Shown here in pieces: positions 41,049-63,034 of a DNA stretch of 64,000 nt; positions within the stretch are counted from its first letter, which is position 1; every line of letters begins with the position of its first letter. Both the position numbers and the translations under genes were made by a program. Below the pieces are notes generated by a model. The model was given only the letters and a program-made list of their open reading frames with translations, made no database searches and was not told where the DNA came from. Source of the DNA: Paraburkholderia oxyphila NBRC 105797 (GTDB lineage Bacteria; Pseudomonadota; Gammaproteobacteria; Burkholderiales; Burkholderiaceae); assembly GCF_000685075.1 (NCBI RefSeq), contig NZ_BAYD01000002.1, forward strand, positions 108,078-172,077, given 5' to 3'.

Positions 41049-41052
41049 CGCC

Positions 41053-46406: not shown

Positions 46407-47780
46407 TCAATTCCCCGCGCTGCGGATCGAATCGGGCGAGAAGTAGGCTTCGTCGAATTGCGGACTGTTGTTCAGCAGCGGAGCCGAGTTGCGGTTCGTC
46501 AGCCGGTCGGCCATGTACGCGCCCGATGTGAGGTCGTGGTAGAACGCGTCCGTCGTATAGAAGCGTTTCGCGTCGAACGCATAGACCGTCGCCTGCTGGT
46601 TCGTGCGCCACAGTTGCCCGCGCGCGTCGTAGTTGTCGGCCGCGACCGGGATCCACGTGTCCTCGTCGAGGTACAGCACGCGCTTCGCGTATTGATGGCG
46701 GCTGCCGGGCTTGAGCGTGGCCTCGAGCACCCAGACGCGGTGCAGTTCGTAGCGCATGTACTTCGGGTTCGGATGGCCCTTGCCCAGCAGGTCGTCGTAC
46801 TTGATCGACGGATCCATCAGCCGGTAGTTGTCATAGGGGACGTAGCGCTCGGCCTTGCCCACGATCTTCCAGTCATATCGCGAGCCCGAGCCGTTGAACA
46901 GGCGGTCGTCGTCGACGGTGCGAAAGCCGCCGGGCCCCTGCGGCTGGTCGAAGCCGAATTCGGGCGCCTGCCTCACGCGCCGCGTGCCGGGGTTGTAGGT
47001 CCAGGTGCGGCGGGTGTCCGAGCCGGAATGGTCGAGGATCTCGTAGCCGACGTTACCGGTGCCGCGCTCGTTGAGCGGCAGTTCGACAAATTCGCGAAAG
47101 AAGCCCTTGTTGTTGAGTGCGTTCTTCACGTCGTACTTGCCGACTTCGCGCGGCGAATAGATGTCGTACTTGACGCGTCCCCAGGCGGTGTCGCCGTTCG
47201 GATAGACGACGGCCTGATCATATGTTGCGGACTCCGTACCAATCGACGACGACATGCGCAGGTTCCACAGCAACTGGAGGCCCGTTTGTGGCTTGGGGTA
47301 GGGCACCTGCGGTGGCGCGTTCGAGAGGCCGTTGCCGTCGCTCGTCATCTGCGTGTCGGGCGCATAGGTGGCGATGTCCTTGTAGACCGACTCGTCGTAG
47401 CGGAAGTCGCGGTGGCTCGGGTAGACCGCCATCTGGAACGTCGCCGGATAACGCTTGAAGAGCGCGATTTCCCCGTCGGTCAGGCGATTGCTGTAGGTCG
47501 CCATGTTCTCCGCCGTGATCACGAAGAGCGGCTTTTCGTCCGCGTACGGGTCCGGGTAGCGCCCGTTCGCCTTGACCTCGATGCCCGGCGGCGCGCCGAG
47601 CCATTTGCCGCTCCACGCGGGAATGGTGCCGTCCTTGTTGCCCGCGCGCTCCGCGCCCATCGGCGTGAGGGGGCCGTCCTGCGCGGCCGTGCCGCTTTCT
47701 CCGGCTTGCGTGATGGCGGGCGGCGTCGCGAGCGTCACCGCCGCGGCCAGACTGACTAACAGGGCTACACGTCTCGTCAT
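46407..47780 (-). CDS. DUF1329 outer-membrane/periplasmic protein (LolA-like fold family)
   Basis: This 457-aa exported protein has a signal peptide cleaved after about residue 26 (ATPPAITQA). The mature part starts LTPMGAERAGNKDGTIPAWSG, the DUF1329 hallmark, and contains VVYPNGDTAWGRVKYD, GYEILDHSGSDTRRTWTYNPGTRRVR and YELHRVWVLEATLKPG. These proteins resemble lipoprotein-sorting folds and commonly sit in clusters for hydrophobic substrates, beside DUF1302 and RND transporters (neither is in this window). A role in moving a hydrophobic substrate across the envelope is likely. It is divergent from the big catabolic operon. Confidence 0.88.
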   Translation of the reverse strand: MTRRVALLVSLAAAVTLATPPAITQAGESGTAAQDGPLTPMGAERAGNKDGTIPAWSGKWLGAPPGIEVKANGRYPDPYADEKPLFVITAENMATYSNRLTDGEIALFKRYPATFQMAVYPSHRDFRYDESVYKDIATYAPDTQMTSDGNGLSNAPPQVPYPKPQTGLQLLWNLRMSSSIGTESATYDQAVVYPNGDTAWGRVKYDIYSPREVGKYDVKNALNNKGFFREFVELPLNERGTGNVGYEILDHSGSDTRRTWTYNPGTRRVRQAPEFGFDQPQGPGGFRTVDDDRLFNGSGSRYDWKIVGKAERYVPYDNYRLMDPSIKYDDLLGKGHPNPKYMRYELHRVWVLEATLKPGSRHQYAKRVLYLDEDTWIPVAADNYDARGQLWRTNQQATVYAFDAKRFYTTDAFYHDLTSGAYMADRLTNRNSAPLLNNSPQFDEAYFSPDSIRSAGN

Positions 47781-47968
47781 CGCTTGTGTCTCCTATGTTG
47801 TTTGGCTATCGATACGGGCTTCCGGGCGCCGGGATTGCGGGCGCCGGGCGTCCGGTCGTGCAGGCCCATCGTAGGAGATCGCTTTTCGCTCGTGTTAGTC
47901 CTCGAGGACGATGTTGTGACGTCCTGCTGCTCGCAAGATGTGCGGCATGCAGCGCTTGGGAGGAGCGA

Positions 47969-49054
47969 GTGGGAGATCGACATCTGGAAGCCACGGCGGG
48001 CCCGCAGGCCCGCCCGCCGTTTGAGCCCGGCCGTTTCGTCGGCCGCCGCTACGGCCGCATCGACGGCTGGGACCCCGTCAACACGCCGATGATTCGCCAT
48101 TGGTGCGAGGCGATGGGCGTGCGCAATCCGGTCTACACGGACGAGTCGTTTGCACGCGGCTCCGTCCATGCGGGGCTCGTTGCGCCGCCGACGATGCTGC
48201 AGGTCTGGCTGCTCGCCGGCCTGAACGGGGCGCTGCCGCCGGGCTCGGCCACCGAAAGCATCCGCGAGCTGATCGACGCGCTGGCCGGGGCCGGCTACCC
48301 GGCGATCGTCGCGGTCAATTCGGAGCAGCACTACGTGCGGTATCTGAGGCCGGGCGAGCGTATCCATCGCACGTCGGCGATCGAATCGATCCATGGGGAG
48401 AAGCGCACGGCGCTTGGCTGCGGATTCTTCGTGACCGAGCTGATTGAGTTCTACGACGGCGACGCACAACTGGTCGGGACGATGCGCTTTCGGCTGTTCG
48501 TCTACCGGCCGCATGCGACGGGCGGCGAGGCGCCGGGCGCGGCTGCTTCGGGCGCCGCTGCGTCGAGCGTCGCTGCGTCGGGCGTCGACACGTCGGGCGC
48601 GGCTGCTTCGGGTGCCGCTGCGTCGGCGCAAGCGTCGGCTGCTGCGACGCCACGCGCGTCAGTGCCGAAGCCGTCGATCAGCCAGGACACCGCGTTCTTC
48701 TGGGAAGGGCTCTCGCGCGGCGAGATCCTGATCCAGCAATGCGAGGCGTGCGATGCGCTGCGCCATCCGCCCGGCCCGGCCTGTCCTCATTGCCACTCGC
48801 TCGCATGGCGCACGGTGCGCGCGAGCGGCCTTGGCGCGGTGCATGCACTCGTGGTCGTGCATCACCCGAAGGTCGTGCCATTCGACGATGCCCGGCCGAT
48901 CGCGCTGATCGAGCTCGACGAGGGCGTGCGCATCGTGGCGCGGCAGATGGGGGCGGACGGGCATGCGGCGCGGATCGGCGCGCGCGTGCGCGTCGAGTGC
49001 GTGGAGGTGGACGCGGACTTCTCGCTGCCGGCATTTCGCGTGATCGAATCATAA
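47969..49054 (+). CDS. MaoC-like hot-dog domain fused to DUF35 (ChsH2-like enoyl-CoA hydratase subunit)
   Basis: This protein of about 361 aa has an N-terminal MaoC-type hot-dog domain (about 20-180), an Ala/Ser-rich linker (about 185-235) and a C-terminal DUF35 domain. DUF35 has a zinc ribbon (C258-x2-C261, C272-x2-C275) and an OB fold. This is the layout of mycobacterial ChsH2 (Rv3542c). The hydratase dyad is lost: where active MaoC proteins have D and H, this reads GVRNPVYTD with Val and Tyr. Catalysis would then reside in the small MaoC protein two genes on, as in ChsH1-ChsH2. GTG 47969 is chosen because GGGAGGAG precedes it; the frame continues upstream through the promoter. Confidence 0.85.
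   Translation: MGDRHLEATAGPQARPPFEPGRFVGRRYGRIDGWDPVNTPMIRHWCEAMGVRNPVYTDESFARGSVHAGLVAPPTMLQVWLLAGLNGALPPGSATESIRELIDALAGAGYPAIVAVNSEQHYVRYLRPGERIHRTSAIESIHGEKRTALGCGFFVTELIEFYDGDAQLVGTMRFRLFVYRPHATGGEAPGAAASGAAASSVAASGVDTSGAAASGAAASAQASAAATPRASVPKPSISQDTAFFWEGLSRGEILIQQCEACDALRHPPGPACPHCHSLAWRTVRASGLGAVHALVVVHHPKVVPFDDARPIALIELDEGVRIVARQMGADGHAARIGARVRVECVEVDADFSLPAFRVIES
48536..48625 (+). repeat. Imperfect direct repeat encoding the Ala/Ser linker
   Basis: A ~30-bp stretch at 48536-48565 recurs with one change 60 bp later (48596-48625), with degenerate 15-bp units between. It encodes GAAASGAAAS-type sequence between the MaoC and DUF35 domains. Confidence 0.75.
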
Positions 49055-49065
49055 GGGGAGGCGGT

Positions 49066-50202
49066 ATGGAATTCGGATTGAGCGACGAGCAGTCGGCGGT
49101 TCGCGATCTCGCGGACACGCTGTTCGGCGATTTCGGCGGCGACGAGCGCGCGGGCGCGTTCGATGCGGCCCAGTCGGCCGATGGCTACGATCGCGCGCTG
49201 TGGGGCAAGCTGATTCACACGGGGCTCGCGACGCTGACGCTGCCCGAGCGCGCCGGCGGCAGCGGCATGGGAATGCTCGAACTGACGCTCGTGCTCGAGC
49301 AGCAAGGCCGCCATCTCGCATCGGCACCGCTGTGGCAGCACCAGTTGGCGATGCTCGCGATTCATGCGTTCGGTGAACCGGGCGTGAGCGCTCGCGTGCT
49401 GCCCGGATTGCGCGGCGGCGATTGTCTCGCGACGGTGGACGCGAGCGTCGAAGGCAAGCCGTCTTTGCGCGCGGTTCTAGACGGCGACGCCTGGGTGCTG
49501 GACGGCAGTATCGGGCCGCTCGGTGCGATCGGCGCGGGCTCCGTCTCGACGAAATGGTTGGTGACGCCGGTGCAGACGGCCGGCGGCGCACGGCTCGCCA
49601 TCGTCGATCTCGATGCGGGGGACATTGCGCGCGTCGAGGGTGTGTCGACGGATGGTGAAGCGCTCGCGACGTTCGCATTTGCCAATGTCCGTGTGCCGGC
49701 AGGGCAGATCGTCGGCGACGCCGCGGCGCTCGACTGGCTCAGGTGCCGCGCGATCGCCTGCGTCGCGGCGCTTCAGCTTGGCGTTGCGCAAGAGGCACTG
49801 CTGCGCACCGCGCAGTACGCGAGCGAGCGTACCCAGTTCGGGCGGCCGATCGGATCGTTCCAGGCCGTGGCGCTGCGCGCGGCGGACGGCTTCATCGACG
49901 TCGAGGTGTTGCGCACCGTGCTCTGGCAGCTCGCGTGGCGGCTCGATGCCGGGCTCGATGCGGGTGGTGAAACGTCAGGCGCCGCGCTAATGCTCAAGCA
50001 GCTCGCCTGCGACAGCGGCCACCGCGTCGCGCATACCGCGCAGCATCTGCATGGCGGCCTCGGCGCCGACCTCACGTATCCGCTGCACCGCTTCTATCTG
50101 CGCAGCCGCGCGCTCGAAATGACACTCGGCGGCGCGCGGGCCTCGGCCGCCGCGCTCGGCGCCTGGCTCGCAGCTAACCCCGACGCCGGAGTCGAATCAT
50201 GA
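49066..50202 (+). CDS. Acyl-CoA dehydrogenase (ChsE1/FadE28-like)
   Basis: This 378-aa acyl-CoA dehydrogenase has an N-terminal helical domain (MEFGLSDEQSAVRDLADTLFGDFGG) and LPERAGGSGMGMLELTLVLEQQGRHLA. Its middle domain is weakly conserved, lacking the usual TEPxAGSD FAD/substrate loop. The C-terminal domain has YASERTQFGRPIGSFQAV and HLHGGLGADLTYPLHRF. Loss of the middle-domain loop is typical of the partner subunit in alpha2-beta2 steroid acyl-CoA dehydrogenases. It probably pairs with the second dehydrogenase at 51.9 kb. A strong AAGGGGAGG precedes ATG 49066, and it overlaps the next gene by 4 nt. Confidence 0.87.
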   Translation: MEFGLSDEQSAVRDLADTLFGDFGGDERAGAFDAAQSADGYDRALWGKLIHTGLATLTLPERAGGSGMGMLELTLVLEQQGRHLASAPLWQHQLAMLAIHAFGEPGVSARVLPGLRGGDCLATVDASVEGKPSLRAVLDGDAWVLDGSIGPLGAIGAGSVSTKWLVTPVQTAGGARLAIVDLDAGDIARVEGVSTDGEALATFAFANVRVPAGQIVGDAAALDWLRCRAIACVAALQLGVAQEALLRTAQYASERTQFGRPIGSFQAVALRAADGFIDVEVLRTVLWQLAWRLDAGLDAGGETSGAALMLKQLACDSGHRVAHTAQHLHGGLGADLTYPLHRFYLRSRALEMTLGGARASAAALGAWLAANPDAGVES

Positions 50203-50645
50203 GCGGACCCGATACGAGACGCTTCGACGACGTGAGCGTCGGCGACGTGCTGCCGCCGCTCGAGATTCCCGTGACGACCACCGGCATCGTCGCGGCCGCG
50301 ATCGCGACGCGCGACTACCAGAACGTCCACCACGACCCCGAGGCCGCGCGCCGGCTCGGCTCGCCCGACATCTTCATGAACATCCTGACCTCGAATGCGC
50401 TGGTCGAGCGCTACGTCGGCGAATGGGCGGGGCCGGAGGCGCTGCTGCGCTCGGTCAGCATCCGGCTCGGCGTGCCCAATTACCCGGGCATGACGATGGC
50501 GATGAACGGCCAGGTCAGCGCGCGCGCCGTGGACGGCGAGCGCTGGGTCGACATCGATGTCGTGGGCCGCAACGAGCGTGGCGATCATCTCACCGGCACG
50601 GTGCGTATCGAACTGGCAGGAGGCGCCGCGCATGCAGGCAGATAA
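50199..50645 (+). CDS. MaoC-like enoyl-CoA hydratase subunit (ChsH1-like)
   Basis: This 148-aa single hot-dog protein retains the hydratase signature: D39 and H44 in ATRDYQNVHHDPEAA (D-x4-H). It then has SPDIFMNILTSNALVERYV and SIRLGVPNYPGMTM. Mycobacterial ChsH1 (Rv3541c, 129 aa) is the catalytic half of the heteromeric steroid enoyl-CoA hydratase with ChsH2. The ATG overlaps the previous stop (ATGA) and its 3' end overlaps the next gene by 14 nt, so translation is tightly coupled. Confidence 0.86.
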   Translation: MSGPDTRRFDDVSVGDVLPPLEIPVTTTGIVAAAIATRDYQNVHHDPEAARRLGSPDIFMNILTSNALVERYVGEWAGPEALLRSVSIRLGVPNYPGMTMAMNGQVSARAVDGERWVDIDVVGRNERGDHLTGTVRIELAGGAAHAGR

Positions 50646-51834
50646 GCACGCAGCCAAGCCGGCCCATAAGCTGAACGGCGTGGCCGCGATTGCGGGAATC
50701 GGCGCGACCGAGTTTTCGAAGGACTCCGGGCGCACCGAGATGCGGCTCGCGGTGGAGGCGACGCTCGCCGCGCTCGCCGACGCCGGGATCGATCCCGCCG
50801 ACGTGGACGGCATGTGCACGTACACGATGGACAATAATCCGGAGATCGAACTATTCCGGCAGATCGGCGGCCGCGAGCTGAAGTTCTTCTCGCGCGTGCA
50901 TTACGGCGGCGGCGCAGCGTGCGCGCCGGTGCTGCATGCGCTGCTGGCGATCGAGGCCGGCATCTGCGAGACCGTGGTGTGCTACCGGGCGATGAACGAG
51001 CGCTCGTGGTACCGGTTCGGCACGGGCGTGCAGGGGCTCCCGCAGGCGCCGACGTTCGAATCGACCCACTACGGCTGGTACGTGCCGCACGGCCTGATGA
51101 CGCCTGCGTCGTGGGTCGCGATGAACGCGAGCCGCTACATGCACGAATACGGCGCGACGAGCGAGGACTTCGGGCGCGTGTCGGTTGCCGCGCGCGACTT
51201 TGCCTCGACCAATCCGCATGCGTTCTTTTATGGCAAGCCGATCACGCTCGAGGAGCATCAGCGCTCGCGCTATATCGCCGAGCCGCTGCGTCTGCTCGAC
51301 TGCTGCCAGGAGAGCGACGGCGCGGTCGCGCTGGTCGTCACGTCGGCGCGGCGCGCGCGCGAGCTGAAACAGAAGCCCGCGATCGTGCGGGCGGCCGCGC
51401 AGGGCGCCTGCGCGGATCTGCAGATGATGACCGGCTACTACCGCGACAACATCGCGAGCCTGCCCGAGATGGATCTCGTCGCGCGGCAGCTCTATGCAAT
51501 GAGCGGTCTCACGCCTGCCGAGATCCAGACCGCCGTGATCTACGACCATTTCACGCCGTTCGTGCTGCCGCAGCTCGAGGCGTTCGGCTTCTGCGCGCGC
51601 GGCGAGGCGAAGGATTTCCTGCGCGCCGGGCACCACGCGCGCGGCGGCCGGCTGCCGGTCAACACGCACGGCGGCCAGATTGGCGAGGCCTATATCCACG
51701 GGATGAACGGCATTGCTGAAGCCGTGCGGCAGGTGCGCGGCACGGCGGCCAATCAGGTGCCGGACGTCGAACACGTGCTCGTGACCGCCGGGACCGGCGT
51801 GCCGACGAGCGGCCTCATCCTGGGGGCGGACTGA
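50632..51834 (+). CDS. Thiolase-fold lipid-transfer protein (Ltp2-like aldolase)
   Basis: This 400-aa SCP2-thiolase-like protein has VAAIAGIGATEFSKDSGRT at the N-terminus, DVDGMCTYT, and HYGGGAACAPVLHALLAI at the nucleophile-elbow position. Further motifs are DCCQESDGAVALVVTSARRA and the late loop LPVNTHGGQIGEAYIHGMNGIAEAV. The C-terminus reads AGTGVPTSGLIL where true thiolases have a Cys-Gly motif, so thiolytic activity is doubtful. Ltp2 (Rv3540c) is a retro-aldolase that needs the DUF35 part of ChsH2 and releases propionyl-CoA from the steroid side chain. Its presence beside a MaoC-DUF35 fusion supports that role here. Confidence 0.86.
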   Translation: MQADKHAAKPAHKLNGVAAIAGIGATEFSKDSGRTEMRLAVEATLAALADAGIDPADVDGMCTYTMDNNPEIELFRQIGGRELKFFSRVHYGGGAACAPVLHALLAIEAGICETVVCYRAMNERSWYRFGTGVQGLPQAPTFESTHYGWYVPHGLMTPASWVAMNASRYMHEYGATSEDFGRVSVAARDFASTNPHAFFYGKPITLEEHQRSRYIAEPLRLLDCCQESDGAVALVVTSARRARELKQKPAIVRAAAQGACADLQMMTGYYRDNIASLPEMDLVARQLYAMSGLTPAEIQTAVIYDHFTPFVLPQLEAFGFCARGEAKDFLRAGHHARGGRLPVNTHGGQIGEAYIHGMNGIAEAVRQVRGTAANQVPDVEHVLVTAGTGVPTSGLILGAD

Positions 51835-51872
51835 GCCGTCCTGCGCCCAACCCGAATGGAGATGGAGACATC

Positions 51873-53051
51873 ATGTTTGTCGATCTGACACCCGAGCAGC
51901 AGGCATTGCGGCGCGAGATACGCCGTTATTTCGCAGCACTGATGACCCCCGAATCGCGCGAAGCGACGCGCGGCGCGGAAAGCGGCGCCGAGTACCGGCG
52001 CCTCATCCGCCAGATGGGGCAGGACGGCTGGCTCGCCGTGGGCTGGCCGAAGCAATATGGCGGGCACGGCTGGTCGGCCGTCGAGCAGCTGATCTTCTTC
52101 GAGGAGGCGCAGCTGGCCGAGGCGCCGCTGCCGTTCGTCACGCTGAACACGGTGGGCCCCGCGCTGATGGAAATTGGCTCGGACGCGCACAAGGCGCGGT
52201 TCCTGCCGAAGATCGCGGCGGGCGAGCTGCACGTCGCGATGGGCTACACGGAGCCCGGCGCGGGCACCGATCTCGCGGCGCTGCAGTGCGCGGCCGTGCG
52301 CGACGGCGATCATTTCGTCATCAACGGCAGCAAGCTCTTCACGAGCGGCGCGGAGGGCGCCGACTATATCTGGCTCGCGGCGCGCACCGACCCTGACGCG
52401 CCGAAGCACAAGGGCATCTCGATCTTCATGGTCGACACGCGCGAGCCGGGCTTCTCGTACACGCCGATCCACACGGTCGGCAACGTGCGGACCAACGCGA
52501 CGTACTACGACGGCGTGCGCGTTCCAGCCGACATGATGATCGGTGAGCTCAACGGCGGCTGGCGGGCGATCACCGCGCAGCTCAATCACGAACGGGTCGG
52601 CCTCGCGGCACTCGGCGTGCGCGGGCTCGGCCTGTTGCGCCGCGTCCTCGCGTGGGCGCGCGAGCCCGTGCCCGGCGAGGACGGGCGGCGCCCGATCGAC
52701 GAGCCGTGGATTGGCGCAACGCTCGCCGAGGTCTATGCGCGCGTCGGCGCGATGCGGCTGATGAACTACCGGATGGCGTGGGAGGTCGGGCAGGGCCGCA
52801 TGAACCCGGCGCTCGCGTCGGCGGCGAAGGTTTACGGCGCGGAGTCGATGATCGAGATATGCCGGCGCCTGGGCGAGGTGGTCGGCACGGCCGGACTCGT
52901 GCGGCGGGGCAGCCCCGTGGCGGCGCTCGCGGGCGATCTCGAGGAGGAATACCGCAAATGCCAGATCAACACGTTCGGCGGGGGCGTGACCGAGGTGCTG
53001 CGCGAGCTGGTCGCGCAGTTCGGGCTCGGGCTGCCGCGCACGGTTCGCTGA
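51873..53051 (+). CDS. Acyl-CoA dehydrogenase (ChsE2/FadE29-like)
   Basis: This 392-aa dehydrogenase has a complete FAD/substrate middle domain (HVAMGYTEPGAGTDLAALQC, VINGSKLFTSGAEGADYIWLAARTD). Glu240 in QLNHERVGLAALGVRG lies where the FadE29-type catalytic base is expected. The C-terminus has CQINTFGGGVTEVLRELVAQFGLGLPR. The pair with the 49.1-kb gene resembles the ChsE1-ChsE2 heterotetramer, which introduces the double bond in the last side-chain round. ATG 51873 lies 39 bp after the thiolase-like gene. Confidence 0.88.
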   Translation: MFVDLTPEQQALRREIRRYFAALMTPESREATRGAESGAEYRRLIRQMGQDGWLAVGWPKQYGGHGWSAVEQLIFFEEAQLAEAPLPFVTLNTVGPALMEIGSDAHKARFLPKIAAGELHVAMGYTEPGAGTDLAALQCAAVRDGDHFVINGSKLFTSGAEGADYIWLAARTDPDAPKHKGISIFMVDTREPGFSYTPIHTVGNVRTNATYYDGVRVPADMMIGELNGGWRAITAQLNHERVGLAALGVRGLGLLRRVLAWAREPVPGEDGRRPIDEPWIGATLAEVYARVGAMRLMNYRMAWEVGQGRMNPALASAAKVYGAESMIEICRRLGEVVGTAGLVRRGSPVAALAGDLEEEYRKCQINTFGGGVTEVLRELVAQFGLGLPRTVR

Positions 53052-53139
53052 GCCGTGCACGGCGCGGCCGTCGCGCGACGCGCGAGCCGGCATTCAATCA
53101 GACGAGGATGACAAGGATAACGAGGAGACAGCTTCGACC

Positions 53140-54942
53140 ATGATCCCAACCCGCGAAGAAACGCAGCGCAAGCTTGATCGTTGCGCGGCCGCCGGCCAGG
53201 CGCACAAGCCAGGTCAGCCGTACACGATCGCCGACCGGCTGGAGGCGCGCGCAGCGGAGCGTCCGCACGCGCCGTATCTCCACTACCAGGGCGCGACGCT
53301 GACTTACGGCGAGGTCAATGCCCGCGCGAACCGGGTCGCGCACGCGGTGCGCTCGCTCGGGCTGCGCCGCGGCGAGGTGTGCGCCCTGATGATGGAGAAC
53401 CGGCCCGACTACTTCAGCGTCTGGTTCGGTCTCGTGAAGCTCGGCGTGACGGTCGCGCAGATCAATACGCAGATCCGCGGCGCGAGCCTGCGCCACGCGC
53501 TGCAGGCGGCCGGCGCGAAGGTCTGCATCGCGGGCGAGGAGTGTCTCGCCAACTTCGACACCACCGACGCGCGCGAAGCGCTGCCCATCTGGTCGTGGCG
53601 CGACGAGGCGATTGCGGCGGCCGACGTCGCGCGCGACGCTTGCGCGCTCGACCTGTCGATGCTCGCGGCGCGCAGTGCCGACGACAACCTGCCGCCCGAC
53701 TGGCGCGCGGGCATCGTCGCCAGCGACCGCGCGTTGCTCGTCTACACCTCGGGCACGACCGGGCTGCCGAAGGCGAGCGTGACGAGCCACATGCGCTGGC
53801 TGATGTCGGGCGACGTGATGCGCGTGGCCGCGGACATCTCGGGCGACGACGTCTTCTACTGCTTCCTGCCACTCTTTCACGGCGCGGCCGGCATGTCGCT
53901 CGCCTCGACCGCGCTTGCCGCAGGCGCGAGCATCGTGCTGCGGCGCCGCTTCAGCTCGAGCGAATTCTGGAACGACGTGCGCCGCTACCGGGTCACCGTG
54001 TGCCAGTACATCGGCGAAATCTGCCGCTATCTGCTCAATGTGCCCGCGCGGCCGGACGACCGCGATCACACGCTGCGCAAGATGATCGGCGCGGGTCTGG
54101 GCGCCGACATCTGGGAGACCTTCCGCGCGCGCTTCGGCATCGAGCGCATCATCGAGGGCTGGGGCTCGACCGAGGCCAACACGGCGCTCAGCAATCTCGA
54201 CAATCGTCCGGGCTCGTGCGGACGGGTGCCGTTCTGGGAGAAGACCAATCTGCGCATCGTCCGATACGATCCCGAGACCGACAAGCATCCGCGCGACGCC
54301 GCCGGTTGGCTGATTCCCTGCGAGCCGGGCGAAGCAGGCGAGGTGATCGGCATGGTCATCGATCACCCCGAGATCGGCGGGGGCCGCTTCGAGGGCTATA
54401 CCGACGCCGATGCGACGCGCCATAAGGTGATGCGTGACGTGTTCCGCACGGGCGATGCATGGTGGCGCTCGGGTGACCTGCTGCGCTACGACGCCGATGG
54501 CTATTTCTATTTCGTCGACCGGATCGGCGACACGTTCCGCTGGAAGAGCGAGAACGTGTCGACGCTGGAGGTCACGCATGCGCTCAGCGATTTCGCCGGG
54601 CTCGAGATCGTCAATATCTACGGCGTGAGCGTGCCGGGCCAGGAAGGGCGCGCGGGCATGGCCGCACTGTCGATGAAGCCGGGCGTTGAGTTCGATGCGC
54701 AGGCGTTCTACGGGCTCGCGCAGTCGCGGCTGCCTGCCTATGCGATGCCGCTCTTCGTGCGGCTCTCGGGCGGCGCGGACCTGACGGCCAGCTTCAAGTT
54801 GCGCAAGGTCGATCTGCAACGCGAAGGCTACGACCCGGCGCGCTTTGACGATCCGTTGTTCATCCGGCACGATGAAGCGCGCACCTACGCGCCGTATTCG
54901 GCCGAGCTGCTGGCGCGGCTGAACTTGCCGCCATCGGCGTGA
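53140..54942 (+). CDS. FATP-type long-chain/steroid acyl-CoA synthetase
   Basis: This 600-aa adenylate-forming ligase has P-loop motif YTSGTTGLPK (202-211), GWGSTEANTALSN in place of the usual A5 motif, SGDLLRYDADGYFYFVDRIGDTFRWKSENVST, and the C-terminal catalytic Lys region TASFKLRKVDLQREG. The long insert and FRWKSENVST are typical of the very-long-chain (FATP/SLC27, FadD6) family, which includes mammalian bile acid-CoA ligase. It would activate a carboxylated side chain to its CoA ester before beta-oxidation by the upstream gene products. Confidence 0.88.
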   Translation: MIPTREETQRKLDRCAAAGQAHKPGQPYTIADRLEARAAERPHAPYLHYQGATLTYGEVNARANRVAHAVRSLGLRRGEVCALMMENRPDYFSVWFGLVKLGVTVAQINTQIRGASLRHALQAAGAKVCIAGEECLANFDTTDAREALPIWSWRDEAIAAADVARDACALDLSMLAARSADDNLPPDWRAGIVASDRALLVYTSGTTGLPKASVTSHMRWLMSGDVMRVAADISGDDVFYCFLPLFHGAAGMSLASTALAAGASIVLRRRFSSSEFWNDVRRYRVTVCQYIGEICRYLLNVPARPDDRDHTLRKMIGAGLGADIWETFRARFGIERIIEGWGSTEANTALSNLDNRPGSCGRVPFWEKTNLRIVRYDPETDKHPRDAAGWLIPCEPGEAGEVIGMVIDHPEIGGGRFEGYTDADATRHKVMRDVFRTGDAWWRSGDLLRYDADGYFYFVDRIGDTFRWKSENVSTLEVTHALSDFAGLEIVNIYGVSVPGQEGRAGMAALSMKPGVEFDAQAFYGLAQSRLPAYAMPLFVRLSGGADLTASFKLRKVDLQREGYDPARFDDPLFIRHDEARTYAPYSAELLARLNLPPSA

Positions 54943-54976
54943 TCAGCGCGATCAGCGAGAGATAAGGGAGACGCCG

Positions 54977-56140: not shown

Positions 56141-56167
56141 GGCCTGTTGCCGGTGTGAACAGGCCCT
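56139..56167. terminator. Hairpin between convergent luxR and tetR genes
   Basis: AGGGCCTGTT (56139-56148) and AACAGGCCCT (56158-56167) pair perfectly around a 9-nt loop. It overlaps the luxR stop codon and can end both transcripts. Confidence 0.65.
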
Positions 56168-56173
56168 CGCGCA

Positions 56174-56815
56174 TCACGCCGCTTTTGCCTTCCGTTTGGG
56201 CGCGGCCGGCGGGGCAGCCGGCTCGCGGCCGAAGGTCCAGAGCATGCGCATCTGCGCGCGCAGCGCGGGCTCTTCCACGGGGACCAGACAATACGCGAGC
56301 CCGATACGGCTGATCAGCGCGATGATGTCGGCGAGCGGCGGGACCTGCGGACCGCGCACGGCGACGTACTGGCGGTAGGGCTTCTCCAGCACGCGCTGCC
56401 ACATGGGCGCGATGTCCTCGACGATGTAGCCGAACACCTCCGTCGACACGCTCTTGGCCAGGTAGTTGTGGTGAAAGCCGCCGTGATGGCGGTCCCGGTA
56501 TCGCACCGCAAAGCACACGCAGGCTTCGCAGTAGGCCTCGAAGTCGTCTTCGAGGTCAGCCAGGCTGCGCTGCATCTCTTCGAAGAACGCGCCGTTCTCG
56601 ACGCTGATCACCCCCTGGATCAGTTCCTTCCTGGTGCCGAAATAGCGGTAGAGCGTGCGGCGCGAGATGTTCGCGCGCCGCGCGACGTCGTCGATCGAGA
56701 AGCCGTCGACGCCCTGTTCGATCATCGCATCGAGGGCCACGCGCAGGATCACGCTGCGCGCGTCGTTCGCGCTATCCATTCTGCTGGCGTCACCCCAGCG
56801 CAATTGCCGATCCAT
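56174..56815 (-). CDS. TetR-family repressor
   Basis: This 213-aa regulator has the N-terminal TetR helix-turn-helix: SVILRVALDAMIEQGVDGFSIDD, then VARRANISRRTLYRYFGTRKELIQG. The ligand-binding helices (AYCEACVCFAVRYRDRHHGG, ADIIALISRIGLAYCLVPVEEP) follow, and the tail is basic (APKRKAKAA). ATG 56815 has AGGAAGG upstream. It faces the Rieske gene across a 229-bp region with two strong inverted repeats, so it probably represses itself and the Rieske-flavoprotein operon. Confidence 0.92.
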   Translation of the reverse strand: MDRQLRWGDASRMDSANDARSVILRVALDAMIEQGVDGFSIDDVARRANISRRTLYRYFGTRKELIQGVISVENGAFFEEMQRSLADLEDDFEAYCEACVCFAVRYRDRHHGGFHHNYLAKSVSTEVFGYIVEDIAPMWQRVLEKPYRQYVAVRGPQVPPLADIIALISRIGLAYCLVPVEEPALRAQMRMLWTFGREPAAPPAAPKRKAKAA

Positions 56816-57044: not shown

Positions 57045-58169
57045 ATGGCCGATTCCACCGTGCTCGATGGCAAGCACGCCATTCACAAGATTCACGCCGC
57101 GCCCATCGAGGAGCGCTATGCGCGCGGCTGGCACTGTCTGGGCCTCGCCGACGATTACCGGGACGGCAAAGCTCACGGGCTGTCGATCTTCGGCACGCGC
57201 GTGGTCGTGTTCCAGGGCGAGGACGGGCAGTTGCGCGTGCTCGACGGCTATTGCCCACACATGGGCGCCGACCTCGGCCAGGGGCGTATCGAGGGCGACA
57301 CGGTGGTGTGCCCGTTCCATGGCTGGCAGTGGGCCTCGGACGGCAAGTGCGCGGCCATCCCGTATTCGCAGCGCATCCCGCCGAAGGCGCGCATCAAGTC
57401 CTGGCCGGTGATGGAGCAGAACCGGCTGCTGTTCGTCTGGAACGACCCGGAAGGGAACGCGCCCGATCCCGCGGTGGAGATCCCGAAGATCAACGCGTGC
57501 TTCTCCGATGCCTGGAGCGACTGGGCGATCGTCAAATGGGTGATCAACACGAACTGCCGCGAGCTGATCGACAACCAGTCGGACATGGCGCACTTCGGGC
57601 CGGTCCATGGCGCGCCAATCGACTATTTCTGCAATACGTTCACGGGTCACGTGGCGTATCAGAAGTTGCGCGGAGGCAGCCCGCGGCTTGCGGGCGACGG
57701 CGGCTTGACGGCCGATTCCGCCTACTTCGGTCCGGCCTACCACGTCACGCTGATGACCGGGGAGGCGCAGGGGCAAGCGATCAAATCGATTCTGCTCAAC
57801 AGCCACGTGCCGATCGACACGAACAGCTTCGAGCTGCGCTTCGGCGTGATGGTCGAGAAGAACCCGGCGCTGACCGACGAGCAGAACCGCGCGATGGTGG
57901 AAGGCTACGTGCAGGCCGCGCAAGCCGCCTTTCGCGAGGACGTGGCGCTCTGGGACACCAAGACACGCGTCGACAATCCGCTGCTGTGCGAAGGCGACGG
58001 TCCGATCTATCGCCTGCGCGAGTGGTACCGGCAGTTCTATACCGACGTGGCCGCGCTGCCCGCGCAGCAAGCGGTAGTCGAGGTGCACGAGTACCGCCGC
58101 GAGGACGCGGGCTGGCGCAAGCGACCCGACGTGCCGGCCGAGGCCGTGAGCCGTCTTTCCACGATCTGA
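57045..58169 (+). CDS. Rieske non-haem iron oxygenase, KshA-like (3-ketosteroid 9-alpha-hydroxylase type)
   Basis: This 374-aa oxygenase has a Rieske domain with C70-x-H72 and C89-x2-H92, in the segments GYCPHMGADLG and VVCPFHGWQWASDG. The catalytic domain has the iron motif D180-x2-H183-x4-H188 in IDNQSDMAHFGPVHG, followed by FTGHVAYQ. A 'REIVDN..DMAHF' pattern is what I associate with KshA, which hydroxylates C9 of 3-ketosteroids and, with KstD, opens ring B. The usual reductase partner (KshB) is not in the window. GAGGAG precedes ATG 57045; the flavoprotein gene follows after 13 bp. Confidence 0.87.
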   Translation: MADSTVLDGKHAIHKIHAAPIEERYARGWHCLGLADDYRDGKAHGLSIFGTRVVVFQGEDGQLRVLDGYCPHMGADLGQGRIEGDTVVCPFHGWQWASDGKCAAIPYSQRIPPKARIKSWPVMEQNRLLFVWNDPEGNAPDPAVEIPKINACFSDAWSDWAIVKWVINTNCRELIDNQSDMAHFGPVHGAPIDYFCNTFTGHVAYQKLRGGSPRLAGDGGLTADSAYFGPAYHVTLMTGEAQGQAIKSILLNSHVPIDTNSFELRFGVMVEKNPALTDEQNRAMVEGYVQAAQAAFREDVALWDTKTRVDNPLLCEGDGPIYRLREWYRQFYTDVAALPAQQAVVEVHEYRREDAGWRKRPDVPAEAVSRLSTI

Positions 58170-58182
58170 GGCGAGGACCATC

Positions 58183-59919
58183 ATGCACGACGATCGACTT
58201 GATCCGCTCACGGATGCCACCTGCGACGTGGTGGTGGTCGGCTCCGGCGCGGGCGCGATGACGGCGGCCCTGCGTGCGCACGATCAGGGCCTGTCGGTCC
58301 TCGTCGTCGAGAAGAGCGCCGTGTACGGCGGCACGACGGCGGTCTCCGGGGGCGGCATCTGGATTCCCTGCAACGACCAGATCGCCGCGCTCGGCGGCAG
58401 CGATTCGTACGACGAAGCAATCACCTATCTGCGCGACGTCGTGGGCGAGGACTTCGACCCGAAGCGTATCGACGCGTATCTCGAGAACGGGCCGAAGATG
58501 GTCGGCTGGCTCGCGAAGCACGCGCAGACGCACTTCCACGCGGTGCCGCGCTATCCCGACTACTACCCGGACCGCAAGGGCGGCAAGCCCGGCTACCGGA
58601 CGATGGAGCCGGCGGCCTTCGACGCCGCGCGCCTGGGCGAGCACTTCGACGAGCTGCGCGCGCCGTCGCCGGCTACGCTGATTGGCGGCCGCATAGCGAT
58701 GACGCAGATCGAAGCGCACACGATCCTCGCCAAGGAGCGCGGCTGGCTGCGCCTGACTGCATGGCTGATGCTGCGCTACGCGACCGACTTCCGCTGGCGC
58801 CGCCGCACCTCGCGCGACCGCCGCCTCACGCTCGGCAATGCGCTCGTCGCAAGCCTGCGGGCCGCGCTCGCGCAGCGCGGCATCGAGCTCTGGCTCGGCA
58901 CGCCGATGCGCTCGCTGCACGTGGACGGCACGCGCGTGGACGGCGTGATCGTGGAGCGCGAGGGCCGCCCATTCGGCATTCGCGCCACGCGCGGCGTGAT
59001 CCTCGCATGCGGCGGCTTCGAAGCGAATCAGGCGATGCGCGAGCAGTATCTGCCCAAACCCACGCGCGCCGAGTGGAGCGCCGCGCCGCCGATCAACACC
59101 GGCGATGGCATCCGCGCCGGCCTCGCGCTGGGCGCCGACACCGCGTTGATGGATTTCGTCTGGGGCGTGCCGACCGTGCGCGTGCCGGGGGAGGAGAAGC
59201 AGCGCGCGCTGTTCGTCGAGCGCTCGGCGCCGCGCTGCGTGATGGTCAACCAGCTGGGGCGGCGCTTCATCAACGAATCGGCGCCTTACCCAGACGTCAT
59301 TCACGCGATGTACGCGGACCATGCGCGCACCCAGGCGAACGTGCCCGCGTGGCTGATCTTCGATGCCGAGTACCGCAAGCGCTATCCATGCGGCGTGCTG
59401 CTGCCCGGCAGCGTGCAGCCGGACAGCAAGATCCCGGCCGGCTGGCTCGACAACGTCATCTATCGCGCCGACACGCTGGACGAACTGGCCGCGAAGATCG
59501 GCGTCGATGCCGGGGGCCTCGCGCAGACCGTCGTGCAGATGAACGGCTACGCGGCGAGCGGCGTCGACACCGAATTCGGCAAGGGCAGCAATGTGTTCGA
59601 CCGCTACTACGGCGACTCGTCGTGCAAACCCAATCCGTGCCTTGGGCCGATCGAGCGCGCGCCGTTCTACGCGCTGCGTCTGGACCCGGGCGAGATCGGC
59701 ACGAAAGGGGGGCTGCGCACCGATGCCCAGGCGCGCGTGCTGCGGCCCGACGGCTCGGTGATCGACGGCCTCTATGCGCTCGGCAACACGACTGCCGCAG
59801 TGATGGGCAAGACTTATCCGGGCCCCGGTTCGACGATTGGACCGGCCATGACGTTCGGCTATGTTGCGGCCAATCACATCGCGGCCACGCGCGTTGAGGC
59901 TGAAGCCGTCAGTTCTTGA
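58183..59919 (+). CDS. FAD-binding 3-ketosteroid delta-1-dehydrogenase-like flavoprotein
   Basis: This 578-aa protein of the fumarate reductase/KstD superfamily has an N-terminal dinucleotide motif VVVVGSGAGAMTAALRAHDQ, then VYGGTTAVSGGGIWIP. Its middle catalytic domain includes GVILACGGFEANQAMREQYL. The C-terminus has ALGNTTAAVMGKTYPGPGSTIGPAM. Tyr545 and Gly549 in TYPGPG have the same spacing as the catalytic Tyr487/Gly491 of Rhodococcus KstD1. It would make the 1(2) double bond in ring A of a 3-ketosteroid; a related dehydrogenase on another cyclic ketone is possible. Confidence 0.86.
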   Translation: MHDDRLDPLTDATCDVVVVGSGAGAMTAALRAHDQGLSVLVVEKSAVYGGTTAVSGGGIWIPCNDQIAALGGSDSYDEAITYLRDVVGEDFDPKRIDAYLENGPKMVGWLAKHAQTHFHAVPRYPDYYPDRKGGKPGYRTMEPAAFDAARLGEHFDELRAPSPATLIGGRIAMTQIEAHTILAKERGWLRLTAWLMLRYATDFRWRRRTSRDRRLTLGNALVASLRAALAQRGIELWLGTPMRSLHVDGTRVDGVIVEREGRPFGIRATRGVILACGGFEANQAMREQYLPKPTRAEWSAAPPINTGDGIRAGLALGADTALMDFVWGVPTVRVPGEEKQRALFVERSAPRCVMVNQLGRRFINESAPYPDVIHAMYADHARTQANVPAWLIFDAEYRKRYPCGVLLPGSVQPDSKIPAGWLDNVIYRADTLDELAAKIGVDAGGLAQTVVQMNGYAASGVDTEFGKGSNVFDRYYGDSSCKPNPCLGPIERAPFYALRLDPGEIGTKGGLRTDAQARVLRPDGSVIDGLYALGNTTAAVMGKTYPGPGSTIGPAMTFGYVAANHIAATRVEAEAVSS

Positions 59920-59996: not shown

Positions 59997-61520
59997 ATGG
60001 GGGAAGCCGAAACCCAACAAGGAATTGCGATGGATACTGGCTGGCTCGGACCGATCCGGCAAATCAGCTTTGCGACCAGCAATCTCGACCAACTCGTGAG
60101 CTTCTGGGAAACGCAGGTTGGCGTCGGGCCGTGGAGCATTTTTCGCGGGCTCACGCTCAACATGACGTATGAGGGACGGCCCATCTCGCTGCCGGTGCAT
60201 GTCGCGCTGAGCATGCATGGTGAGACGCTGATCGAATTGATTCAGGTGTCGGGCGATGGGCCATCGCCGTTTCACGACTCGCTCAACCGGCCGGTCATCG
60301 GGCTGCAGCGGCTGGCGGCGATGAGCCGCGACATGCACCGCGACGTTCGCGTGGCGTGCGAGAGAGGGATGGAGCATTGCGCCGAAGGACGCGACGCCAC
60401 GGGACAACGCTACAGCTATTTCCGCTGCGCGGCGGCGCCCGGCATTCTGCTCGAACTGCTCGAAGCGACACCGGGCTTTGACGATTTCGTCGGCGTGCTG
60501 GAGGCGCGTGCACGCAGCTATGGCGCAACTTGGGTCGCGGGCGGCACGGGCGATGTGCGCAAGGCCATGCTCACGACGACGGTGGAGCGGAGCGGCACGA
60601 TGCGCGCGATCCAGTTGACCGGCTATGGCGGGGTCGATCGTTTCGTTATGCAAACGGTTGCCGAGCCGCACCCTGGACCAGGAGAAATCCGCGTGCGTGT
60701 TGCGGGCGCAGCGGTCAATCCGGTCGACGTGAAGGCGCGCAACGGATGGCTCGATGCGTGGATGCCGCTCACGTTTCCGGCGCGCCTGGGCGGCGACGTC
60801 GCGGGCATCGTGGACGCCGTGGGTGAGGGCGTGACCGCATTTCGCCCTGGCGACAGGGTCATGGGCATGGTGAATCCGCTCAGTGACGGCGCGTATGCGG
60901 AGAAGATCGTCTTCGACGCCAGCCGGTTCGTGCACGTGCCCGATGGCCTGGATTTGGTCGAGGCGTCAGCCATGCCGACTGGCGGACTGACCGGGACGCA
61001 ACTGATCGAAGCCGGGATTCGTCCGGCGCGGGGCGCAAAGGGACTCGTGATTGGCGCGGGCGGCTCGACGGGGCGCGCGGCAGTGATCGCGGCGCTCGAT
61101 GCGGGCGCGCAGGTATATGCGGGCGTGCGTGCAACGAGTCGTGACGCGGTGGCTGATTTGCCCGTCGCGGGTGTCATCGATATCGCCGATGAAGCCGCAT
61201 TGGCCGCGGCGGGACCATTCGATTTTCTCGCCGATACGGTAGGCGGGACGGTTGCCGAAGCGCTTTTTGCTTATGTGAAGTCGAACGGCGTTGTTGGCTC
61301 CAGTGCGTTTCCGCCGCCTGTGCCGCCGGCCAATTCGACGCAACGGTTCGTTTCGCTGGTCGTGAGCTTCGATGGGCCGCGTCTCGCGCGTTTTGCGCGT
61401 GAGAGACTTCAACGGTTCCCCATGCCTGTCGCGCACAAGTTGCCGCTTGCCGAAGCCGGGCGTGCACACACGTTGATGGAGCAGGGCGGTGTTGGCGGGA
61501 AGATCGTGCTGGTGCCTTGA
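59997..61520 (+). CDS. VOC-family domain fused to NADPH:quinone oxidoreductase-like MDR domain
   Basis: This 507-aa open frame joins two full domains. Residues 12-175 are a vicinal-oxygen-chelate (glyoxalase) domain (IRQISFATSNLDQLVSFW, VGVGPWSIFRG, ETLIELIQVSG). Residues 202-507 are a zinc-less medium-chain reductase starting MRAIQLTGYGGVDRFVM, with NADPH loop GLVIGAGGSTGRAA. The junction codon 60600 is an ATG preceded by GGAGCGGAG, so the second domain may also be made separately. I know these only as separate proteins. Start ATG 59997 (GGAGGGG upstream) or ATG 60030 (AAGGA upstream). Confidence 0.82.
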   Translation: MGEAETQQGIAMDTGWLGPIRQISFATSNLDQLVSFWETQVGVGPWSIFRGLTLNMTYEGRPISLPVHVALSMHGETLIELIQVSGDGPSPFHDSLNRPVIGLQRLAAMSRDMHRDVRVACERGMEHCAEGRDATGQRYSYFRCAAAPGILLELLEATPGFDDFVGVLEARARSYGATWVAGGTGDVRKAMLTTTVERSGTMRAIQLTGYGGVDRFVMQTVAEPHPGPGEIRVRVAGAAVNPVDVKARNGWLDAWMPLTFPARLGGDVAGIVDAVGEGVTAFRPGDRVMGMVNPLSDGAYAEKIVFDASRFVHVPDGLDLVEASAMPTGGLTGTQLIEAGIRPARGAKGLVIGAGGSTGRAAVIAALDAGAQVYAGVRATSRDAVADLPVAGVIDIADEAALAAAGPFDFLADTVGGTVAEALFAYVKSNGVVGSSAFPPPVPPANSTQRFVSLVVSFDGPRLARFARERLQRFPMPVAHKLPLAEAGRAHTLMEQGGVGGKIVLVP

Positions 61521-61559
61521 GTTTGTCCACCGCGGTTCGTCCACCGCGTTGGCCGCGAC

Positions 61560-61590: not shown

Positions 61591-61604
61591 GATAGCGGCG
61601 ACGA

Positions 61605-62360
61605 TCAGTGGAAGGTCTTGCCGGCCAGCAAGCCGCCATCGACGATGAACTCCGAGCCCGTGCAGTAGGAGGACGCGTCGGAGGCGAGGAACAGCGCGAG
61701 ATCGGCCACTTCCTCGGGACGGCCGATACGCGCGATCGGCAGCGAGTTGTAGATCGCGGACGGTTCGAAGTCGGCGTATTCGGGCGGCCGGGCCATCGCG
61801 GTATCGATGCCGCCCGGGTGGATCGAATTGACGCGAATGCCAAGGTGGCCCAACTCGAGCGCCGCAGACTTGGTCATGCCTCGAACGGCGAACTTGCTGG
61901 ACGTGTAGGCCGTGCCGCCCGCGATGCCTTCCATGCCAGCCGTGGATGAAACGTTCACGATCGAGCCGCGGCCCGCCTTCTTCATGGACGGCAGCACGGA
62001 CTTCATGCCAAGCCAGCAGCCCACCTGATTCACGTTGATGACCTTCAGGTAATCGTCGAGCGAGCACGATTCCAGCGGCGCGAGCTTGAGGATGCCGGCG
62101 TTGTTGACCAGCACGTCGATGTTGCCGAAATGTTTTTCGGCGACTTGCACGGCAGCTTCCCATTGTTCCGGGCGTGTGACGTCCAGGTGCTGGAAGATCG
62201 CGGAGCCTTGCAGCTCGCTGGCCAGACGCTCGCCGTCGGCATCCAGCACGTCGGCAATTACCACGCGTGCGCCTTCGGCCGCGAACAATCGGGCTTCCGC
62301 CGCACCCTGGCCGCGTGCGCCGCCGGTGATCAATGCCACTTTGCCTTCCAGACGCTTCAT
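61605..62360 (-). CDS. SDR-family oxidoreductase (hydroxysteroid dehydrogenase-like)
   Basis: This 251-aa classical short-chain dehydrogenase has cofactor motif TGGARGQGAAEARLF (12-26), NNAG (86-89), catalytic Ser139, Tyr152 and Lys156 in VNVSSTAG and TAYTSSKFAV, and PGGIDTAM. The phrase VVIADVLDADGE after the Rossmann start, with an Asp that favours NAD, is shared with 3-alpha/20-beta-hydroxysteroid dehydrogenases. It probably oxidises a ring hydroxyl of the cluster's substrate. It lies 45 bp downstream of the VOC gene on the same strand, so one promoter at 63.0 kb serves both. Confidence 0.9.
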   Translation of the reverse strand: MKRLEGKVALITGGARGQGAAEARLFAAEGARVVIADVLDADGERLASELQGSAIFQHLDVTRPEQWEAAVQVAEKHFGNIDVLVNNAGILKLAPLESCSLDDYLKVINVNQVGCWLGMKSVLPSMKKAGRGSIVNVSSTAGMEGIAGGTAYTSSKFAVRGMTKSAALELGHLGIRVNSIHPGGIDTAMARPPEYADFEPSAIYNSLPIARIGRPEEVADLALFLASDASSYCTGSEFIVDGGLLAGKTFH

Positions 62361-62405
62361 TTCGATGTCTCCTGTTGTGAAATGTGTTGTGTTTTCGATG
62401 GGGTG

Positions 62406-62957
62406 TCAGGGGTGCTTGGCGCTCGTGGTGTCGCTCATTGCATCGATTACGTGGATCGGATTGGCGCCGTCCCAGTCGCGCGCGGCGGCGATGCCTTGCT
62501 GGATCAGTTCGCGCATCCCGGCGCCCTGGATGACCTCATAGCGGACACCGGGTTCGGACGCGTCTTCGAAATACGCGACTCGCGTTGCCGGGTTGCTTGC
62601 TTCGAACACCATCTGTAGACCGTCGGCGGTCATGCGTTCGATCGCGGCATCGATGTCGTCGACCACCCAGGCTACGTGGTGCATGCCGAGGATCGGTTGG
62701 CCGTGGGCGTCACGGTAGGGGGAGGCGCTGTTGTTGGTGGCCTGGATCAGCTCGATCTGGGTTTGGCCTTGATATGCGAGGCCTACGTTCATCGTGACTG
62801 TGACGGGTTGGTTCAGGTAATGCCCTTGCAGGGCGACATTGCGGAAGACCATCCAGGGGCCTACGCCAAGCTGCGTCAGCCAACGTTCGATGCTCTGGTC
62901 GAGGTCGCTAACCAGATAGCCGATCTGGTCGATCGTGCCAAAGCGTGCTTTTTTCAT
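62406..62957 (-). CDS. VOC-family (glyoxalase-like) protein
   Basis: This 183-aa protein has one vicinal-oxygen-chelate domain: FGTIDQIGYLVSDLDQSIERW, LGVGPWMVFRNVALQGHY, QTQIELIQATNNSASPYRD and MHHVAWVVDDIDAAIERM. It is clearly related to the N-terminal half of the 60.0-kb fusion protein (shared GVGPW, IELIQ, SP-Y/F-D). VOC proteins bind a metal and isomerise, epimerise or open rings; the reaction here is unknown. A pair of operator-like repeats lies just upstream. Confidence 0.87.
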   Translation of the reverse strand: MKKARFGTIDQIGYLVSDLDQSIERWLTQLGVGPWMVFRNVALQGHYLNQPVTVTMNVGLAYQGQTQIELIQATNNSASPYRDAHGQPILGMHHVAWVVDDIDAAIERMTADGLQMVFEASNPATRVAYFEDASEPGVRYEVIQGAGMRELIQQGIAAARDWDGANPIHVIDAMSDTTSAKHP

Positions 62958-62979
62958 TTCGTCTCGCCCATGGTGCTAT

Positions 62980-63002
62980 GTCGCAAAATTTGAATTTGTG
63001 CC
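62980..63002. promoter_or_regulatory. Inverted repeat operator C (upstream of VOC-SDR operon)
   Basis: GTCGCAAA-N7-TTTGTGCC matches sites A and B in half-site and spacing. It lies 23 bp before the VOC start. Confidence 0.75.
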
Positions 63003-63010
63003 GTAATGAT

Positions 63011-63034
63011 GGCACAGATTTGTGGGTTTGTGAC
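63011..63034. promoter_or_regulatory. Inverted repeat operator D (upstream of VOC-SDR operon)
   Basis: GGCACAGA-N8-TTTGTGAC combines the left arm of site A with the right arm of site B. Its centre is about 31 bp from site C, the same spacing as A to B. Confidence 0.75.

Follow-up and report, generated by a model that had tools for sequence, protein, structure and literature searches.

The igr enzymes ChsE1/E2, ChsH1/H2 and Ltp2 take the last three side-chain carbons off cholesterol. The genes ORF40-44 of Comamonas testosteroni TA441 (chsH2, chsE1, chsH1, ltp2 and chsE2) have been characterised by gene disruption (PMC12502768; this and the other papers cited are drawn on in excerpt). In TA441, sal1 and shy1 homologues deal with C23-C24, and ChsE/H/Ltp2 then deal with the propionyl residue (PMC12502768). 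For the 9,10-seco pathway of ring degradation, a 2016 survey used the criterion of at least six of eight key enzymes, including KshA and HsaC; in the excerpt of that survey, its Burkholderia, Cupriavidus and Ralstonia steroid degraders were without most cholate side-chain genes (PMC4810484). Here we analyse a stretch of 64,000 nucleotides from Paraburkholderia oxyphila NBRC 105797 (below, the window). It contains a gene island, the last called gene of which ends at 62957, and this island is a composite of a side-chain segment and, beside it, a separate TetR-KshA-KstD-VOC/MDR-SDR-VOC module. We consider it highly probable that the composite is a steroid locus, in which an igr-type set is predicted to activate C22 steroid acids with coenzyme A (CoA) and to remove the C3 side chain as propionyl-CoA, while the separate TetR-KshA-KstD module is predicted to open ring B. 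The reactions, the substrate and the regulation of the island are all what we infer from the sequences.

Open reading frames and their coding signal were read with our own codon-usage script, and the encoded proteins were compared with Pfam, NCBIfam and PDB structures. The host genome comprises 10.65 Mb in 313 contigs. Because the final base of the window is also the final base of contig C312 (172,077 bases), it has little meaning that a gene is not in the window.

The igr-type side-chain genes

The side-chain genes and the segment in which they lie are as follows; G084 is a genome of the same genus that is compared with the window below.

45618..56169, no strand: side-chain segment (blastn identity to G084 stops at 45617 and resumes at 56170; G084 has 211 bp here, L233 7281-7491)
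45771..46334, minus strand: SnoaL_2 / NTF2-fold protein (Pfam PF12680, 36.7 bits; inside the segment that G084 is without)
46407..47780, minus strand: DUF1329 (LolA-like) protein (PF07044, 389 bits)
47969..49054, plus strand: ChsH2-like MaoC-DUF35 fusion (Pfam zf-ChsH2, OB_ChsH2_C and FAS1_DH_region; PDB 4wnb_A, 6e-35, and 6ok1_B, 3e-31)
49066..50202, plus strand: acyl-CoA dehydrogenase subunit in the position of Comamonas ORF41 (ChsE1) (PDB 6wy8_A, Tcur3481, 1e-54; 4x28_D, 8e-46)
50199..50645, plus strand: ChsH1-like small MaoC hydratase subunit (PDB 4wnb_B, 9e-34; RDYQNVH at residue 38)
50632..51834, plus strand: Ltp2-like retro-aldolase, predicted to act on C3 side chains (PDB 6ok1_A, 6e-166)
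51873..53051, plus strand: acyl-CoA dehydrogenase subunit in the position of Comamonas ORF44 (ChsE2) (PDB 6wy8_B, Tcur3483, 4e-127; 4x28_A, 3e-122)
53140..54942, plus strand: FATP-type acyl-CoA ligase (NCBIfam NF006134, 722.9 bits, cut-off 625)
54977..56140, plus strand: PAS-LuxR regulator (PF00989, PF00196)

The sequence features of an igr-type module are all present: ChsH1, a ChsH2 with MaoC and DUF35 parts, an Ltp2 with YDHF and the second Tyr, two acyl-CoA dehydrogenase genes, and the gene order. In the Ltp2-like aldolase, Tyr304 (in YDHF) and Tyr354 align with Tyr294 and Tyr344 of Thermomonospora curvata Ltp2. Sal, the bile-acid C5 aldolase, has YDCY and a Gln at the sites of the YDHF and second Tyr of Ltp2 (PMC12329534), so that YDHF together with the second Tyr reads as a C3-specific Ltp2 signature, as against the YDCY of Sal. 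The ChsH2-like fusion has a C..C...C..C motif starting at residue 258 and is predicted to combine a hydratase subunit with a Zn-ribbon/OB partner of the aldolase; the small MaoC protein scores below the Pfam cut-off yet reaches 9e-34 against the ChsH1 structure. The two acyl-CoA dehydrogenases, each of which best matches a different chain of 6wy8 and next a chain of 4x28, are predicted to form a heteromeric pair, and the FATP-type enzyme is a predicted steroid-22-oyl-CoA ligase. As a separate observation, a 15-base tandem repeat (window 48514-48625) encodes the Ala/Ser/Gly-rich linker that joins the MaoC and DUF35 halves of ChsH2, and the length of this linker may therefore differ among strains.

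To see how this arrangement compares with others, we scanned for Ltp2 loci with one genome per species and examined the best 80 of 583 confirmed loci, to which the following counts refer. In all loci fetched for this study, genes were called by our own simple codon-usage script with no standard gene finder; one fetched locus, L243, yielded no gene calls and was excluded. The order ChsH2-acyl-CoA dehydrogenase-ChsH1-Ltp2 was found in 67 of the 72 loci having at least 2.8 kb upstream, and a second acyl-CoA dehydrogenase came next after Ltp2 in 47 of the 64 ordered loci having at least 1.4 kb downstream. A FATP ligase (at least 45% identity) followed this second dehydrogenase in 13 of the 46 loci with 3.2 kb downstream. 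Within Burkholderiaceae, Ltp2 (E 1e-100) was detected in 3 of 144 genomes of the genus and 4 of 398 genomes of the family sample, the host's own included in both. The side-chain gene set is of an already known kind, common in other bacteria and rare in this genus. The genus has another type of Ltp2 cluster, seen in G142 (L181 12441-17369), where DUF35 forms a protein by itself and, together with a longer MaoC protein, takes the place of the ChsH2 fusion; a stand-alone DUF35 gene also adjoins Ltp2 in G192 (L242).

The two minus-strand genes that precede this set differ in how often they accompany Ltp2. A DUF1329 homologue (at least 30% identity) occurs in 29 of the 80 loci, and no relative of the SnoaL_2 protein was found in them at E 1e-15. 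The DUF1329 protein perhaps takes part in the outer-membrane handling of a hydrophobic substrate; a literature search for DUF1329 with steroid or DUF1302 returned titles, none of them on steroid degradation. The fold family of the SnoaL_2 protein includes SteC and BaiE, which are steroid dehydratases (PMC13101464).

An earlier, sequence-only reading of this DNA had named the gene classes of the island, and all of them are present, with coding signal by the codon-usage script. Its NTF2-fold gene exists too, at 45771-46334 and hence outside an island that it had let begin at 46407. Its assignments to a Burkholderia-type host and to an igr-like side-chain module are borne out, the latter by subunit-by-subunit PDB matches, motifs and gene order. 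It had also seen no pathway that it could name for this combination of genes. This view is not borne out: the module can be named, because its gene order is common in other bacteria and the Comamonas testosteroni ORF40-44 operon, which has been disrupted, is that operon (PMC12502768).

The composite structure and the accessory ring module

G084 is collinear with the window at 92-96% DNA identity and shares its chromosomal place, in which a phosphatase gene is followed by TetR-KshA-KstD, VOC-MDR, SDR and VOC, with a KshA 98% identical to that of the window. Unlike the window, it is without the side-chain segment. Since 10,552 bp with nine genes, SnoaL to LuxR, stand against 211 bp in G084, these nine genes constitute one segment that was either gained in the window or lost in G084. 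The G+C content of the segment is 0.676 compared with 0.650 in the flank, and no terminal repeats, such as could mark mobile-element ends, were seen for it. In G084, for its part, KstD and VOC-MDR are separated by a gene for an FAD-dependent dehydrogenase, and 1,487 bp at this place are gone from the window. A stretch of about 4.5 kb at window 39517-44009 is also not in G084; by look it codes for a protein resembling acyl-CoA dehydrogenases, a luciferase-like monooxygenase and a transporter, and G084 has about 100 bp between the flanks (L233 5626 and 5724). The genes beside the side-chain segment are the following.

56174..56779, minus strand: TetR regulator of the accessory ring module (PF00440; start uncertain, reading frame open to 56902)
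57045..58169, plus strand: KshA, 3-ketosteroid 9alpha-hydroxylase oxygenase, accessory clade (PF19298, KshA_C, 242.6 bits; PDB 4qdc, 1e-105)
58183..59919, plus strand: KstD, 3-ketosteroid delta1-dehydrogenase (PDB 7p18, 2e-196; PDYY, NESAPY and YPGPG aligned with 4c3x)
60030..61520, plus strand: VOC fused to an MDR (zinc-type, quinone-reductase-like) dehydrogenase (Pfam; VOC part 26.8 bits, cut-off 27)
61605..62360, minus strand: SDR (PF13561, 215.7 bits; 99% in G084)
62406..62957, minus strand: second VOC protein, methylmalonyl-CoA-epimerase-like (PF13669, 65.9 bits; TIGR03081, 41.9 bits, below the cut-off of 114.95)

KshA aligns over residues 12-342 with solved KshA proteins. In addition to the KshA_C domain it has a Rieske motif at residue 70 and, at residue 176, the stretch DNQSDMAHFGPVH. 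This stretch lines up with DN..DMAHF..IH in 4qdc and 2zyl, and we assign it to the mononuclear iron site, the ligands of which are two His and an Asp; an Asp in a later EDV/QDV stretch is likewise common to the KshA of the window and the solved proteins in the alignment. The three KstD motifs are in line with those of 4c3x, at what we take to be the catalytic Tyr119, Tyr318, Tyr487 and Gly491 (Rhodococcus erythropolis numbering, with an assumed offset of 20).

The window KshA is 61% identical to a second KshA of the host, on contig C117. KshA (E 1e-70) occurs in 81 of the 398 family genomes, and proteins at least 80% identical to the window's occur in nine of the 398, own included. From the loci read, 43 KshA proteins were collected, and a tree was built of the 31 that differ. 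In it these nine group together as a single clade (100/99), separate from an 18-row clade with the C117 copy; the tree has a long branch (L218) and possibly false joins. What speaks against viewing the accessory clade simply as a separate class is that the proteins nearest to it in the tree are the KshA of G237, G265 and G078, and that the KshA gene of G237 and of G078 lies in a ring-degradation cluster. TetR and KstD stand alongside the accessory KshA in seven of the eight other family genomes, and in G365 only VOC-MDR does. Plasmid DNA gave matches in three records, the one long match being a Burkholderia arboris replicon with TetR-KshA-KstD; the KshA copies of B. arboris are 84% and 58% identical to the window's and lie on different replicons.

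The VOC-MDR gene could be read from 59997, but bases 59997-60029 are a scar: the first 11 match the start of the FAD-dependent dehydrogenase gene, which is intact in G084 but deleted in the window except for this remnant in frame with VOC-MDR, and the next 22 match the VOC-MDR leader of G084. Because these upstream bases are the start of a deleted gene and the G084 leader, the start of VOC-MDR is most likely at 60030. A chance read-through is ruled out: of 458 relatives found, 120 were listed, and in 96 of these a single chain spans 84% or more of the query. Among the relatives listed, the closest named one is from P. silviterrae (94%), and some relatives of the MDR half carry an NTF2-fold domain (PF13577) in place of VOC, a hint that the N-terminal half can be exchanged. 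VOC-MDR was found in 3 of the 398 family genomes, with the accessory KshA close by in each, and in 1 of 369 genomes of a class sample (the host's own). Genomes that hold Ltp2 were drawn from 50 of the 80 loci; 49 of them were searched, and one has VOC-MDR. It thus goes with the accessory KshA rather than with the side-chain genes; a part in the igr module is ruled out by this last count and by its occurrence in none of the 80 Ltp2 loci at E 1e-15. The protein had no match on plasmids at E 1e-60. That the SDR is a hydroxysteroid dehydrogenase is only a guess. At the contig end (window 63000-64000) the G+C content drops to 0.52 and no gene was called.

Candidate ring-degradation genes, predicted pathway and alternatives

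Candidate genes for ring degradation were found elsewhere in the host genome. Contig C195 (loci L092 and L093) carries, as we name them, an HsaA-like gene (best model NF045629, 392 bits, cut-off 450), an HsaC-like gene (NF045631 as the best model, with 315 bits against a cut-off of 450), a flavin reductase that occupies the HsaB place, FadD3 (770.8 bits, above the cut-off of 657), an FAD-NAD-2Fe2S reductase with KshB architecture, and IpdA/IpdB-like genes, of which the IpdB-like one is without a Pfam or NCBIfam match and was named from place and look. The contig also has several acyl-CoA dehydrogenases, a thiolase that we call FadA6-like because of its place, what looks like an RND transporter, and another KstD, which shares 59% identity with the window's; a gap of about 960 bp in L093 (1013-1972) has no open reading frame of at least 150 amino acids. 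Contig C117 has the second KshA at its start and further encodes a 2-oxopent-4-enoate hydratase, an acetaldehyde dehydrogenase and a 4-hydroxy-2-oxovalerate aldolase. By our own naming, not by the survey's hidden Markov models, the 9,10-seco set of the host would consist of KstD, KshA, HsaA-like and HsaC-like proteins and a generic hydratase, aldolase and dehydrogenase, with HsaD not pinned down. Ring-fission genes on C301 and C182 are not claimed as steroid genes, as the C301 dioxygenase and both hydrolases favour biphenyl-type over Hsa models, and contig C264 was ruled out as an hsa cluster after the genes of its last 33.6 kb had been read.

These genes suggest the following route. The FATP ligase would form a steroid-22-oyl-CoA, into which the paired acyl-CoA dehydrogenases would introduce a 17(20) double bond; ChsH1 and the MaoC half of ChsH2 would hydrate this bond, and Ltp2 with the DUF35 half of ChsH2 would release propionyl-CoA and leave a 17-ketosteroid. 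KstD and KshA, the electrons coming probably from the KshB-like reductase of C195, would then produce a 9-hydroxy-1,4-diene that opens spontaneously, and the HsaA/B/C-like and IpdA/B-like enzymes of C195 may carry ring breakdown further.

Several observations weigh against this reading. The scores of HsaA, HsaC and both KstD proteins fall beneath the curated cut-offs (622 against 788 for the window KstD), and the FATP ligase is far under that of CasI, the steroid-22-oyl-CoA synthetase model (219.8 against 900). The HsaB model NF045630 ranks only fifth for the C195 flavin reductase (75.5 bits), behind RutF and HpaC, and HsaD was not pinned down in this genome of 313 contigs, both hydrolases read scoring higher for BphD. 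Near Ltp2, moreover, KshA (at least 45% identity) occurs in none of the 80 loci, nor do TetR, VOC or MDR, and the two halves of the island therefore need not share one substrate. The side-chain segment might then lie by chance beside an accessory KshA-KstD module for hormones or other 17-keto steroids, a possibility that we place not far below an even chance. It would fit with G084, which keeps the ring module at the identical place without the side-chain segment, with G341, G387, G399, G403 and G411 (20 kb read) and B. arboris (in the stretch read), all of which have TetR-KshA-KstD without other island genes, and with the varied substrate preferences of Rhodococcus KshA paralogues (PMC4064121). 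On the other hand, both halves would serve one pathway, and G365 also has both, on different contigs. Another idea is that the accessory module works by itself on steroids still bearing a side chain. KshA and KstD would then prefer C22 acids or the corresponding CoA esters, and VOC-MDR would be an undescribed steroid enzyme (an isomerase or dehydratase half plus an enoyl-reductase half). This seems to us unlikely; if true, ring opening and side-chain removal would run together, as in mycobacteria.

A further question is whether a C22 compound is the entry substrate or a mere intermediate. The genome was found to encode 12 Ltp2-like proteins, the window's included; all were read, with no known Sal as positive control, and not one has the Sal-type motif YDC[YF]. 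For this reason our first guess, held with modest confidence, is entry as a C22 steroid acid, although upstream enzymes of another kind could exist. The island could instead serve bile acids or sterols as in Comamonas and mycobacteria, with upstream side-chain enzymes elsewhere in the genome, which we regard as possible but rather doubtful. The same Comamonas operon acts on cholate-derived C22 intermediates (PMC12502768), and the genome has ten P450-domain matches (two being second pieces of an already matched gene); one acyl-CoA dehydrogenase domain alone is matched 51 times. Besides the missing Sal motif, the location of the P450 matches, none on C312, argues against this, as does, weakly, the comparison of four P450s with NCBIfam, in which no steroid model matched and for which such a model may not exist. 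A non-steroid polycyclic terpenoid, such as a resin acid, is a very improbable substrate: the FATP, SDR, VOC and MDR parts are generic enough to allow it, but Ltp2, ChsH1/H2, KshA and KstD are closest to solved steroid enzymes, and the genome has 9,10-seco-like ring genes.

We thus retain the steroid reading of the composite locus. Steroid catabolism, as the sequence-only reading had proposed, is supported by Ltp2, ChsH1/H2, KshA and KstD together with ring genes elsewhere; its KshA-like and KstD-like identities hold, given the best solved relatives and the catalytic motifs kept. Its remark that ring-A/B cleavage genes and a reductase were lacking applies to the window and not to the genome, where the proposed search for hsaA-D and kshB led to hsaA-, hsaB-, hsaC- and kshB-like genes on C195, with hsaD not pinned down; the search for sal homologues yielded none with the Sal-type motif among the 12 proteins. 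Its suggestion that the substrate may be new is not supported, as a new substrate class is not needed when steroid counterparts exist for the key enzymes and the genome contains candidate ring genes.

The locus among described systems

Very likely, the island is a genuine steroid locus of a known kind, with a tidy composite history and a host that is uncommon for it. It gives no evidence for a new pathway or a new substrate class. A literature search on steroid degradation in Paraburkholderia found a cumene dioxygenase paper, and a broader search had no mention of Paraburkholderia among the papers listed, by which absence is not proven. The locus places a whole C3-side-chain module in a genome of the surveyed family, where a near relative has none; window and G084 offer a clean natural comparison for the gain or loss of side-chain use. 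It also brings to light a second, rarer KshA clade in the family, travelling with TetR and KstD.

Compared with the igr enzymes of Mycobacterium tuberculosis and T. curvata, every subunit encoded in the window matches a solved chain. The igr gene order is, as we take it, different from that of the window, and, unlike those systems, contig C312 has no P450 gene. With KshA and KstD of actinobacteria and Sterolibacterium denitrificans (4qdc, 2zyl, 4c3x and 7p18, the species of 7p18 being our assumption), the window proteins share family domain, motifs and long alignment, whereas the window KshA falls in the Burkholderiaceae accessory clade. TeiR/TesR, the Comamonas regulator of steroid degradation, is likewise of LuxR type and tied to steroid genes, a comparison by type alone (PMC6678751). 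Comamonas testosteroni TA441 ORF40-44 has the identical five-gene order, MaoC-DUF35 fusion included. Unlike the window, the TA441 operon sits within a 120-kb mega-cluster (PMC12502768), whereas the window has the ligase and LuxR genes directly after the five genes and the accessory KshA-KstD module adjoining them.

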